Below are positions 3,704 through 6,056 of a stretch of DNA of 64,000 bases, piece by piece. Origin of the DNA: Polynucleobacter sp. 15G-AUS-farblos (lineage in GTDB: Bacteria > Pseudomonadota > Gammaproteobacteria > Burkholderiales > Burkholderiaceae); NCBI RefSeq assembly GCF_018882445.1, contig NZ_JACVOM010000001.1, forward strand, positions 372,001-436,000, in the 5' to 3' direction. Position numbers and translations under genes: made by a program. Every line of letters starts with the position of its first letter. Within the stretch, counting starts at the first letter, position 1. Under the pieces are notes generated by a model, which saw only the letters and a program-made list of their open reading frames with translations, did not search any database and was not told the origin of the DNA.

Positions 3704-4171
3704 ATGCCAGTAGCCATCGGTCAACCCATTCCCTCTTGTGCTGTTCCAGCAACATCTGGACTCACTTTTACTCCAGCTTCTGCTCAAGGTAAAAAACTTG
3801 TTATCTATTTTTACCCTAAGGACATGACCCCAGGCTGTACTGCTGAATCTGGTGAATTTAGAGACAACATTGATGCCTTTACCAAAGCGAACACGTTGAT
3901 TGTTGGCGTATCCCGCGATAGCCTCAAGTCTCACGATAACTTTCGCAGCAAACTACAGCTCCCTTTTGAGCTCGTTGCGGATACTGAAGAAAAACTCTGC
4001 CAACTCTTTGGCGTCATGAAGATGAAAAATATGTACGGTAAGCAAGTCCGTGGGGTTGAGCGCAGCACCTTCCTCTTTGACTCCTCTGGCAAGCTGGTGA
4101 AAGAGTGGCGCGGCTTGAAGGTTCCAGGCCATGTGACAGAGGTATTACAAGCTGCCAAAGATACCAAATAA
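3704..4171 (+). CDS. bcp: Peroxiredoxin, Bcp/PrxQ family
   Basis: A thiol peroxidase of 155 residues that reduces hydroperoxides using thioredoxin. The peroxidatic cysteine is C45 in YPKDMTPGCTAESGEF. The residue five positions on is G50 rather than the resolving cysteine of E. coli-type Bcp, so this is either a 1-Cys enzyme or uses another thiol; C99 in EKLCQLFG is the obvious candidate. It has a GAAGGA-type ribosome binding site (gaaggatcatc before ATG) and lies 12 nt after arnD. In many Burkholderiales this gene directly precedes the PhoH gene, as here. Confidence 0.9.
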   Translation: MPVAIGQPIPSCAVPATSGLTFTPASAQGKKLVIYFYPKDMTPGCTAESGEFRDNIDAFTKANTLIVGVSRDSLKSHDNFRSKLQLPFELVADTEEKLCQLFGVMKMKNMYGKQVRGVERSTFLFDSSGKLVKEWRGLKVPGHVTEVLQAAKDTK

Positions 4172-4198
4172 TTTTTACAAAAATTTAGCAGTAGGTGC

Positions 4199-4226
4199 TT
4201 GCAAACCCCAAAAAATGGGGTAAAGT
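4199..4226 (+). promoter_or_regulatory. Candidate sigma-70 promoter for the phoH transcript, with palindromic spacer
   Basis: TTGCAA and TAAAGT are separated by 16 nt. The spacer and its flanks form an inverted repeat, ACCCC-aaaaaat-GGGGT (4205-4221), that would place an operator between -35 and -10. The repeat could instead be a weak 3' hairpin for bcp, but no T-run follows it. Transcription would start near 4233. Confidence 0.5.
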
Positions 4227-4232
4227 AAATCC

Positions 4233-4394
4233 ATATGCACCGTAAGCGACGGGAAAGTCTGACAATTCGTTTGAATCAGGAACCTGAATACTTCAGAACA
4301 GGCTTGGAGACTGACCCCCGCCATTCTTTAAATACCGCTACAACCCGTTTCGTAATAAACCGTCAATGCAGTCCGCTTGGCGGTTTTTTCTTTT
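4233..4394 (+). ncRNA. Candidate structured leader RNA (or small RNA) upstream of phoH
   Basis: About 160 nt between a plausible promoter and an intrinsic terminator that ends 13 nt before the phoH start. By eye it folds as a closing stem (CGGG 4250-4253 with CCCG 4317-4320, then AGTCT 4256-4260 with AGACT 4308-4312) enclosing two small hairpins (ATTC/GAAT near 4264-4275; CTGA/TCAG near 4284-4296). A further stretch leads into the terminator at 4359-4389. This layout fits either an attenuator or riboswitch controlling phoH, or an independent small RNA. I do not recognise it with certainty; 6S, RNase P, SRP and tmRNA signatures are absent. Rfam lists a Polynucleobacter-1 motif, which should be tested. 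Confidence 0.5.
4359..4394 (+). terminator. Intrinsic terminator in the phoH leader
   Basis: ACCGTCAA (4359-4366) pairs with TTGGCGGT (4377-4384) through eight pairs including one G-U, with a 10-nt loop, followed by TTTTTTCTTTT. It lies directly before the phoH ribosome binding site AGGAGA (4395-4400). Confidence 0.75.
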
Positions 4395-4406
4395 AGGAGA
4401 GTCTGC

Positions 4407-6056
4407 ATGCCACTGCCCCCCATCCCCACTCAAATTGCTGATCAAGTAAAACTGAGTCGTAAAGACACTCCCGATTTAAAGAAACGTCCCGCACCAGCAA
4501 AACCAGTAGTGATGGAAGCCTCTGATTGGGCTCATGAAGCAGAAGAAGACTTATCTGAGGCCGAAGTCGCACTAGAAAAAATCAAGAGCGATCACCGGCC
4601 AATGCGTAACGATAAAAATGAACAGGCTCCAGCTAAACCAAAACGCGTGATCCGCACTGGACCACCAAGCTTATTTGTCTTGGATACCAATGTTCTAATG
4701 CATGATCCAAGCTCACTCTTCCGCTTTTCTGAGCATGACTTGTATTTGCCAATGACTACCCTTGAAGAGCTAGATAATCATAAAAAAGGGATGACTGAGG
4801 TTGCGCGCAATGCCCGAACCGTCAGCAGATCTTTAGATCAACTGATTGCTGGCACCAGCGGCACCTTGGATGAGGGCATCCCCCTCAATAAGCTGGGCAA
4901 TCAAGATGTTTCTGGTCGCCTCTTTTTCCAAACCAAACTCTCCACCCAAGCGCTTCCAGAAGGATTACCAGAGGGCAAAAATGACAATCTGATTCTGGCA
5001 GTTGTTAGCGAGTTACAAAAGACACGCAATGGACAAGAGGTGGTCTTGGTATCGAAAGATATCAATATGCGGATCAAGGCGCGTGCTTTAGGTTTACCTG
5101 CTGAAGACTACTTTAACGACCAAGTACTTGAAGATCGCGATTTGATGTACTCCGGAGTTATGAGTTTGTCTGCAGACTTCTGGCCTAAGCATGGCAAAGA
5201 TATGGAAAGTTGGGCTGACTCTAAATCGGGTACGATGTTTTACCGGGTAACTGGCCCATCAGTACCAAGCATGCTAGTAAACCAATTTGTCTTTCAAGAA
5301 AATCCAGATGGCTCTACACCTTTTTATGCACAGGTTCGTGAGATCAACGGCAAGACCGCGCTTTTGCAGACCCTCCGAGATTTTTCTCATCAGAAAAACA
5401 ATGTTTGGAGCGTGACTGCACGTAACCGCGAGCAAAATTTCGCTATGAACTTGCTCATGAATCCCGATGTCGATTTTGTGACGCTGCTCGGTCAAGCTGG
5501 TACTGGTAAAACTCTGCTTGCTTTAGCAGCTGGGCTTGAGCAGGTACTTGACAGTAAGCGTTATAACGAAATCATCATTACTAGAGCTACCGTACCAGTC
5601 GGAGAGGACATTGGTTTCTTGCCTGGTACTGAGGAAGAAAAGATGCAGCCTTGGATGGGTGCATTTGATGACAACCTTGAAGTCCTCCAGCGCAATGATG
5701 ATGGTGCAGGAGAATGGGGCCGTGCAGCCACACAAGAACTGATTCGCTCCAGAATCAAAGTGAAAAGTATGAACTTTATGCGTGGTAGGACCTTTGTTAG
5801 CAAGTTTGTGATTATTGATGAGGCGCAGAACTTAACGCCTAAGCAAATGAAAACCTTAGTTACCCGTGCTGGTCCTGGAACCAAGATTATCTGCTTAGGA
5901 AACATTGCTCAGATCGATACCCCCTATCTAACTGAGGGCTCTTCAGGTTTGACATATGTGGTTGATCGCTTCAAAGGTTGGCGTCACGGCGGTCATGTGA
6001 CATTGGCCCGCGGTGAGCGTTCACGTCTTGCGGATCATGCAGCAGACGCCCTTTAA
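4407..6056 (+). CDS. PIN-domain/PhoH-family ATPase
   Basis: A cytoplasmic 549-residue protein joining an N-terminal PIN nuclease-type domain to a C-terminal PhoH ATPase, a PhoH2-like architecture linked to RNA unwinding and cleavage in other bacteria. The PIN domain begins near residue 90 (LFVLDTNVLMHDPSSL). Walker A is GQAGTGKT near residue 362 and Walker B is FVIIDEAQ near 466. The first 80 residues are charged and probably disordered. The ATG at 4407 was chosen because AGGAGA sits 6 nt upstream; the frame is open to a TTG at 4377, but that codon lies inside the terminator hairpin. Expression is probably controlled by the leader and terminator before it. Confidence 0.9.
   Translation: MPLPPIPTQIADQVKLSRKDTPDLKKRPAPAKPVVMEASDWAHEAEEDLSEAEVALEKIKSDHRPMRNDKNEQAPAKPKRVIRTGPPSLFVLDTNVLMHDPSSLFRFSEHDLYLPMTTLEELDNHKKGMTEVARNARTVSRSLDQLIAGTSGTLDEGIPLNKLGNQDVSGRLFFQTKLSTQALPEGLPEGKNDNLILAVVSELQKTRNGQEVVLVSKDINMRIKARALGLPAEDYFNDQVLEDRDLMYSGVMSLSADFWPKHGKDMESWADSKSGTMFYRVTGPSVPSMLVNQFVFQENPDGSTPFYAQVREINGKTALLQTLRDFSHQKNNVWSVTARNREQNFAMNLLMNPDVDFVTLLGQAGTGKTLLALAAGLEQVLDSKRYNEIIITRATVPVGEDIGFLPGTEEEKMQPWMGAFDDNLEVLQRNDDGAGEWGRAATQELIRSRIKVKSMNFMRGRTFVSKFVIIDEAQNLTPKQMKTLVTRAGPGTKIICLGNIAQIDTPYLTEGSSGLTYVVDRFKGWRHGGHVTLARGERSRLADHAADAL

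Follow-up and report, generated by a model that had tools for sequence, protein, structure and literature searches.

In Escherichia coli pyrBI, the leader ORF crosses the terminator and stops close to the structural gene, and translation of the leader favours read-through; this leader has a Shine-Dalgarno (SD) sequence and senses UTP, to which polymerase pausing responds in attenuators of this type. The trpL ORF of Sinorhizobium meliloti ends ahead of its terminator. It is described as a leaderless ORF of 14 codons, including Trp codons, that opens the attenuator sRNA rnTrpL (PMC7298713). For arfA and brfA, nonstop mRNA is described as arising from a stem-loop or terminator that precedes the stop codon (PMC8012679), and in mycobacterial phoAT-phoH2 a short ORF is described directly 5' of a PIN-PhoH gene (PMC7390352). 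The sRNA family RF02883, known from Burkholderia, occupies the same genomic place as the leader analysed here.

The phoH leader of Polynucleobacter contains an ORF that, like that of pyrBI, traverses an intrinsic terminator and stops close to the gene that it precedes; unlike the pyrBI leader ORF, it is putatively leaderless, and that gene is phoH. With S. meliloti trpL, as that system is described, it would share a leaderless ORF with which an attenuator RNA begins, but the phoH leader ORF spans the terminator and has no evident amino-acid run. Its terminator precedes the stop codon as in arfA and brfA, and because the terminator lies inside the leader frame, an RNA ended in the T-run would carry an ORF without a stop codon; arfA and brfA are described as encoding rescue proteins, whereas the phoH leader peptide is for the most part free of constraint and has another gene behind it. 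The mycobacterial locus was compared by description and not by sequence: its PhoAT is a binding protein, and the available description of the pair contains no terminator (PMC7390352). The RF02883 RNA extends from the leader ATG to the T-run of the terminator; it is catalogued as a non-coding sRNA, and its model does not match the Polynucleobacter versions. A leader ORF running through the terminator points to ribosome-dependent attenuation, and the overlap of a translatable leader ORF with an intrinsic terminator, as expected of such attenuators, was found here by comparison. We consider it probable that transcription is attenuated in this stretch in a ribosome-dependent manner, in which translation of the leaderless ORF through the terminator permits read-through into phoH.

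Organization of the phoH upstream region

The features ahead of phoH are collected in Table 1, with positions counted in the window, that is the whole stretch of 64,000 nt that was analysed. A sequence-only reading of this DNA had called a promoter, an intrinsic terminator with a T-run and a ribosome binding site in this order before phoH. All three calls were borne out, the terminator stem in 66 aligned sequences; the reading had overlooked the ORF that covers nearly the entire stretch. A generic scan of the window (loop limit 8, promoter threshold 9 of 12) listed neither the promoter nor the terminator. The phoH product matched the NCBIfam model PhoH2 with E 1.6e-72, yet under that model's cut-off.

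Transcription typically starts ~7 nt past the -10 box. The leader ATG at 4235 lies 8 nt past the -10 box and has no SD sequence at the usual distance; a start at ~7 nt would place the RNA 5' end at or beside this ATG, and this spacing predicts a leaderless message in Polynucleobacter. In the alignment of class-A leaders, U-rich stretches are visible in the middle of the leader.

Table 1. Features of the phoH upstream region and the basis on which each was assigned
Feature	Position	Strand	Basis
Upstream gene, peroxiredoxin (AhpC-TSA family, bcp-like)	3704-4171	+	ORF; Pfam PF00578, E 2.7e-30
Promoter: -35 TTGCAA (4199-4204), 16-nt spacer, -10 TAAAGT (4221-4226)	4199-4226	+	sequence reading
Leader ORF, putatively leaderless, 53 codons + TAG, MHRKRRESLTIRLNQEPEYFRTGLETDPRHSLNTATTRFVINRQCSPLGGFFF	4235-4396	+	open frame in relatives, no nonsense, third-position bias in codons 1-16
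P1 closing pairs 4240-4242/4305-4307	4240-4307	+	weak: 87.2% of cells paired, 0 both-side changes
Hairpin P2, 4248-4252/4267-4271	4248-4271	+	weak: 90.0% of cells paired, 0 both-side changes
Hairpin P3, 4282-4286/4299-4303	4282-4303	+	98.5% paired, 10 both-side-changed cells, 26 sequences
C-tract ACCCCC in the drifting middle of the ORF	4314-4319	+	conserved by eye
Intrinsic terminator within the leader frame: hairpin 4358-4385, T-run (T6) 4384-4389	4358-4389	+	-12.8 kcal/mol; 95.0% paired
phoH SD AGGAG, overlapped by leader stop TAG (4394-4396)	4395-4399	+	sequence reading
phoH, PIN + PhoH domains, PhoH2 type, 549 aa, ATG 4407	4407-6056	+	Pfam PIN_4 E 9e-36, PhoH E 3.5e-47

Conservation and evolution of the leader ORF within the genus

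phoH was present in 78 of the 81 genomes searched in the genus group. Among 128 upstream sequences for which the phoH start was matched, 100 regions were distinct; L103 and L104, in which the PhoH N-terminus was unmatched, were read separately, and G043, where the match began at residue 63, also stood outside this set. The leader ATG was anchored by a rule that required a TTG-type -35 hexamer and a -10/ATG gap of 5-9 nt (four anchors were set by hand); with these requirements, a promoter-like pair followed by an ATG 6-9 nt past the -10 box was found in 100 of 100 regions. Counted from the promoter-proximal ATG to just 5' of phoH, frame 0 was open in 99 of the 100 distinct regions, frame +1 in 4, frame +2 in 2, and the reverse frames in 13, 2 and 5. 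The sole failure of frame 0 was L062, with a broken 12-codon ORF. This locus (genome G017, 1.55-Mb contig) combines the broken leader ORF with an unusual phoH frame, a 733-aa open frame; the phoH copies of G023 (L107) and G188 contain stop codons, as though the gene were decaying there, and G017 is likewise odd.

The leader stop lies in or adjoins the phoH SD or start in most genus regions, and the frame overruns the phoH start in L102, L122, L103 and L104. A hairpin beside at least four T residues was found in 99 of the 100 regions, in 98 of them at -8.7 kcal/mol or better; L099 reached -5.7 kcal/mol and L100 had none. The deep-branching L099 and L100 keep the -10-like box, the ATG and a long frame, with the terminator weak or not found. 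The same three elements are kept in the deep-branching L103 and L104, where a -10-like hexamer lies 7 nt 5' of the ATG, frames of 115 and 122 codons overrun the phoH start, and the terminator inspection covered T-runs only. Peptides of different clades look dissimilar (53 aa beginning MHRKRRE, 53 aa beginning MQRWRRD, 47 aa beginning MHRKRWYG, and the 21-aa MLKNTFTSITATPPGRRFFLY), and the ORF ranges from 21 to >100 codons.

Changes were counted by parsimony, and pN/pS by NG-type counting, in a codon alignment of 69 main-clade ORFs; a second clade group contributed 17 ORFs, including the broken L062. Codons 1-16 of the main clade had 15/18/54 changes by codon position (column-shuffle P 0.0006), the middle segment 139/159/155 and the end segment 32/30/22; over the whole ORF the counts were 186/207/231, and the third-position bias was not significant (P 0.19). 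The corresponding pN/pS values were 0.36 for codons 1-16, 0.79 for the middle and 1.27 for the end. Frame +2 of the middle segment gave 0.57, lower than the true frame, so that pN/pS cannot discriminate the true frame in this segment. In the second clade group, the first 12 codons had 15/14/26 changes, a weaker bias (P 0.034). Not one of the 625 inferred main-clade changes (L122 excluded) was a nonsense change, vs. 18.6 expected from the observed spectrum (P ~6e-9, assuming independent changes); the zero follows from all frames in that set being open. Together with the drifting peptide, this deficit indicates that selection preserves readability through the terminator. The substitution pattern indicates that the peptide sequence itself is clearly kept at its start alone (codons 1-16), and since the middle and end are without clear amino-acid constraint, readability through the terminator is the conserved property. 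The leader N-terminus is rich in Arg and Lys (R-X-R), a candidate stalling motif of the macrolide type.

The constrained start fits a different explanation as well, in which the small protein encoded by the leader has a function of its own, either as a PhoAT-like antitoxin for the PIN-PhoH enzyme or as a rescue factor of the ArfA/BrfA kind. PhoAT is described as being encoded directly 5' of PhoH2 and as binding it (PMC7390352), and arfA and brfA as having the stem-loop or terminator ahead of the stop codon (PMC8012679). This explanation sits poorly with the weak constraint on the middle and C-terminus, with the unrelated look and the range of lengths of the peptides of separate clades, and with the family searches (two peptides gave no match in Pfam at E<=1, and three gave none in NCBIfam). 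A PhoAT-like antitoxin would be expected to be a conserved small protein that binds PhoH; in the leader peptide, clear constraint was found at codons 1-16 alone. We regard a working small protein as unlikely.

RNA structure of the leader and the proposed attenuation

The sequence-only reading had placed ~100 nt of nested stems between the promoter and the terminator. This was borne out in part. Folded alone, 4233-4395 did no better than shuffled sequences (z -0.66, with 44 of 200 shuffles equally good); dinucleotide z-scores across 18 representatives ran from +0.41 to -3.47. The hairpin P3 withstood comparison (Table 1). The alignments held 66 of 77 terminator regions (nine short-form rows, L083 and L122 excluded), 57 of 70 class-A leaders, and 26 of 37 5' domains (11 were excluded, judged unalignable without gaps). 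Both-side changes among relatives were found in both P3 and the terminator. In the terminator stem (66 sequences), both sides had changed at 4 of 11 pairs, in 10 cells, and 0 of 500 shuffles, which ignore kinship, reached the observed value on cells and 2 of 500 on pairs. For the 5' domain (26 sequences), P3 held all 10 both-side-changed cells and P1 and P2 none; the observed value was reached by 0 of 500 shuffles on cells and 131 of 500 on pairs, again with kinship ignored.

The outermost pair of P3 links the third position of codon 16 to that of codon 23, and A-U is swapped there for G-C (23 and 23 of 57 sequences, with G-U in 8 and no pair in 3). As the swap is synonymous on both sides in the usual codons, it suggests RNA-level selection atop coding. 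P3 is possibly an RNA polymerase pause hairpin. The C-tract is kept at the nucleotide level where the amino acids drift and is a candidate binding or pairing site. An antiterminator in which the leader helix GACGG pairs with a terminator arm was dropped; compensatory changes were not seen by eye.

A covarying hairpin and a C-tract would also suit a riboswitch or other ligand-binding leader, which the sequence-only reading had entertained. That suggestion found no support, nor did a structure common to the genera emerge: no Rfam family reached its gathering score on the stretch (permissive matches in 4150-4450 were at chance level, and in the entire window Rfam found two tRNAs only), and the 5' third of the leader varies chiefly at third codon positions, which argues for a coding sequence rather than an aptamer. 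We consider a ligand-binding leader very improbable, and the same holds for a constitutively leaky, unregulated terminator that merely lowers phoH expression, which would not account for a frame that stays open across the terminator in peptides unrelated to one another.

The ribosome-dependent attenuator that we prefer builds on features established by comparison (the ORF and its conservation, the promoter spacing, the terminator and P3), and from these we infer its coupling, its read-through and its signal. Judging from promoter spacing, transcription would start at or within ~2 nt of the leader AUG, a position supported in Burkholderia by published mapping (PMC4603805). With such a start, a ribosome could load on the nascent 5' end without an SD sequence. 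It would trail the polymerase closely, hairpins like P3 perhaps holding the polymerase back; a ribosome close to the polymerase is reported to be able to block intrinsic terminator hairpins (PMC5021804). By covering the terminator arm inside its own frame, the trailing ribosome would keep the terminator from forming and the polymerase would enter phoH, so leader translation would raise read-through. In Polynucleobacter, the leader stop in the phoH ribosome-binding site may hand ribosomes over to phoH. If the leader were untranslated or slowly translated, the terminator would free a short RNA, ~155 nt here and 126 nt in Burkholderia, which with its ORF lacking a stop would be a nonstop mRNA and, in Burkholderia, probably also the known sRNA. 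The output of PhoH, a PIN-RNase/helicase, would scale with the capacity for leaderless translation. Candidate signals acting on leader translation are stress, leaderless initiation, ribosome rescue, codon supply and nucleotide supply.

Counterparts in other Burkholderiales and the sRNA RF02883

We compared 64 further loci with a recognisable phoH start, 53 from the same family and 11 from the same order (L141 and L199 are one genome). A promoter with an ATG 7-8 nt past the -10 box was found in 45 loci, 42 of which also had a terminator before phoH. The leader ORF passed the terminator in 40 of these 42 (one genome doubled), and the other frames did so in 0 and 8; the zero of frame 1 is in part a trivial outcome, since ATGA gives TGA in that frame. 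The terminator was not passed in L144 (stop 14 nt ahead of the T-run) or L163 (5 codons), and L299 is a further exception to the architecture. Named carriers are Cupriavidus necator, C. basilensis, Burkholderia pseudomultivorans, Paraburkholderia species and Mycetohabitans endofungorum. When a looser rule was applied to 80 named loci, the terminator and -10/ATG combination was found in 47, at least seven of them chance anchors in the peroxiredoxin gene (L240, L247, L248, L254, L257, L258 and L261); 38 of the 47 were open through the terminator (other frames 10 and 19), and L231 was misanchored. In 19 largely Comamonadaceae-like rows (e.g. Polaromonas, Hylemonella, Roseateles, Caldimonas), for which an ATG 5-9 nt past the -10 box was accepted, the ORF ran through the terminator in 18 and the control frames in 8 and 15; as the controls are nearly as often open, frame openness proves little there. 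Under these rules, chance anchors aside, no such architecture was found in loci of Massilia, Undibacterium, Herbaspirillum, Achromobacter and Advenella, in the family genus groups g18, g19, g21 and g22 (L184, L185, L190-L195), or in the 11 loci from other families of the order. Genomes within one genus are non-independent samples in these counts.

The Rfam model RF02883 (BcKCsr2) matched Burkholderia and Paraburkholderia leaders from the leader ATG to the T-run (L230, 1191-1322; L232, 1157-1315). It scored above cut-off in 13 of 60 genomes spread over the family and in all 65 from the Burkholderia genus group (second, sub-threshold matches in 8); its gathering score of 40 was reached neither in the window nor in any of the 4 Polynucleobacter genomes. 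In 31 of 31 Burkholderia loci the match started at the A of the leader ATG, with the T-run setting in at +126 in 29 loci and +123 in the other 2, and the ATG lay 306-315 nt 5' of phoH. All 26 distinct leaders had frame 0 open, and none had either of the other two frames open (first codon skipped). The changes in 24 leaders (12/14/15) had no codon-position bias, which leaves the open frame and the start position as the support for coding in Burkholderia. Here the leader ORF mostly stops >100 nt ahead of phoH, so translational hand-over is not a general feature.

In B. cenocepacia J2315, Bc_KC_sr2 (also nc5U15 and RIT25) is reported at 2,136,329-2,136,454 (126 nt), and in strain KC-01 iron depletion is reported to raise it (PMC10987360). 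For BCAL1937, a transcription start at 2136329 and an alternative gene start at 2136644, 315 nt apart, are given (PMC4603805). BCAL1937 is probably phoH, by its size and distance, and the J2315 lengths agree with an RNA that begins at the leader ATG. The sequence-only reading had proposed conditional read-through or a free small RNA, and the class was correct: in Burkholderia the counterpart has been catalogued as an sRNA, and the published start site and sRNA end, as given in these accounts, fit the two ends of the leader. The RNA at this site has been published as an sRNA or a 5' UTR, and the accessible text of these reports makes no mention of the leader ORF (PMC10987360, PMC4603805). The word phoH is absent from the main text of two sRNA reviews, and no description of the leader ORF was recognised among the open-licence papers listed, as judged by title, counts and abstract start.

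The terminated RNA might instead be a trans-acting sRNA and the product that counts, with phoH downstream by history and the ORF incidental. Its cataloguing as an sRNA and its reported iron response in Burkholderia, the covarying P3 and the conserved C-tract all agree with this. An incidental ORF, however, would hardly avoid the expected stops or stay open in nearly every genus region, and RF02883 is unmatched in the 4 Polynucleobacter genomes. In loci collected by way of phoH, its position after the leader is due to the search design, but a phoH-like start also lies 3' of the leader in the 31 Burkholderia loci found via RF02883. We give a trans-acting sRNA a low probability and favour attenuation through leader translation.

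More tentatively, and less likely than not, the attenuator may recur in several Burkholderiales genera as a sensor of leaderless translation: phoH would be on only when ribosomes start at the 5'-AUG and traverse the terminator, which would couple an RNA enzyme to ribosome state or rescue, and the "non-coding" sRNA of Burkholderia would be its terminated nonstop message. For PIN-PhoH enzymes, with their poorly characterised function, the proposed attenuator would offer a control mechanism that can be tested; it would also recast an Rfam sRNA family as a terminated phoH leader bearing a leaderless ORF and provide a natural read-out, in several Burkholderiales genera, of leaderless translation coupled to transcription.

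Two further observations concern Burkholderia-type loci. In L342, one of the 31 Burkholderia loci, the leader frame has no stop and is fused in frame into phoH as one long ORF. In L141, L149, L159, L160 and L166-L170, a second conserved element, approximately AAGGAG-N-GATCGAAATCTAGGCGAACCGGCG, lies between the terminator and phoH, ~100-130 nt 5' of the gene and with no obvious ATG.
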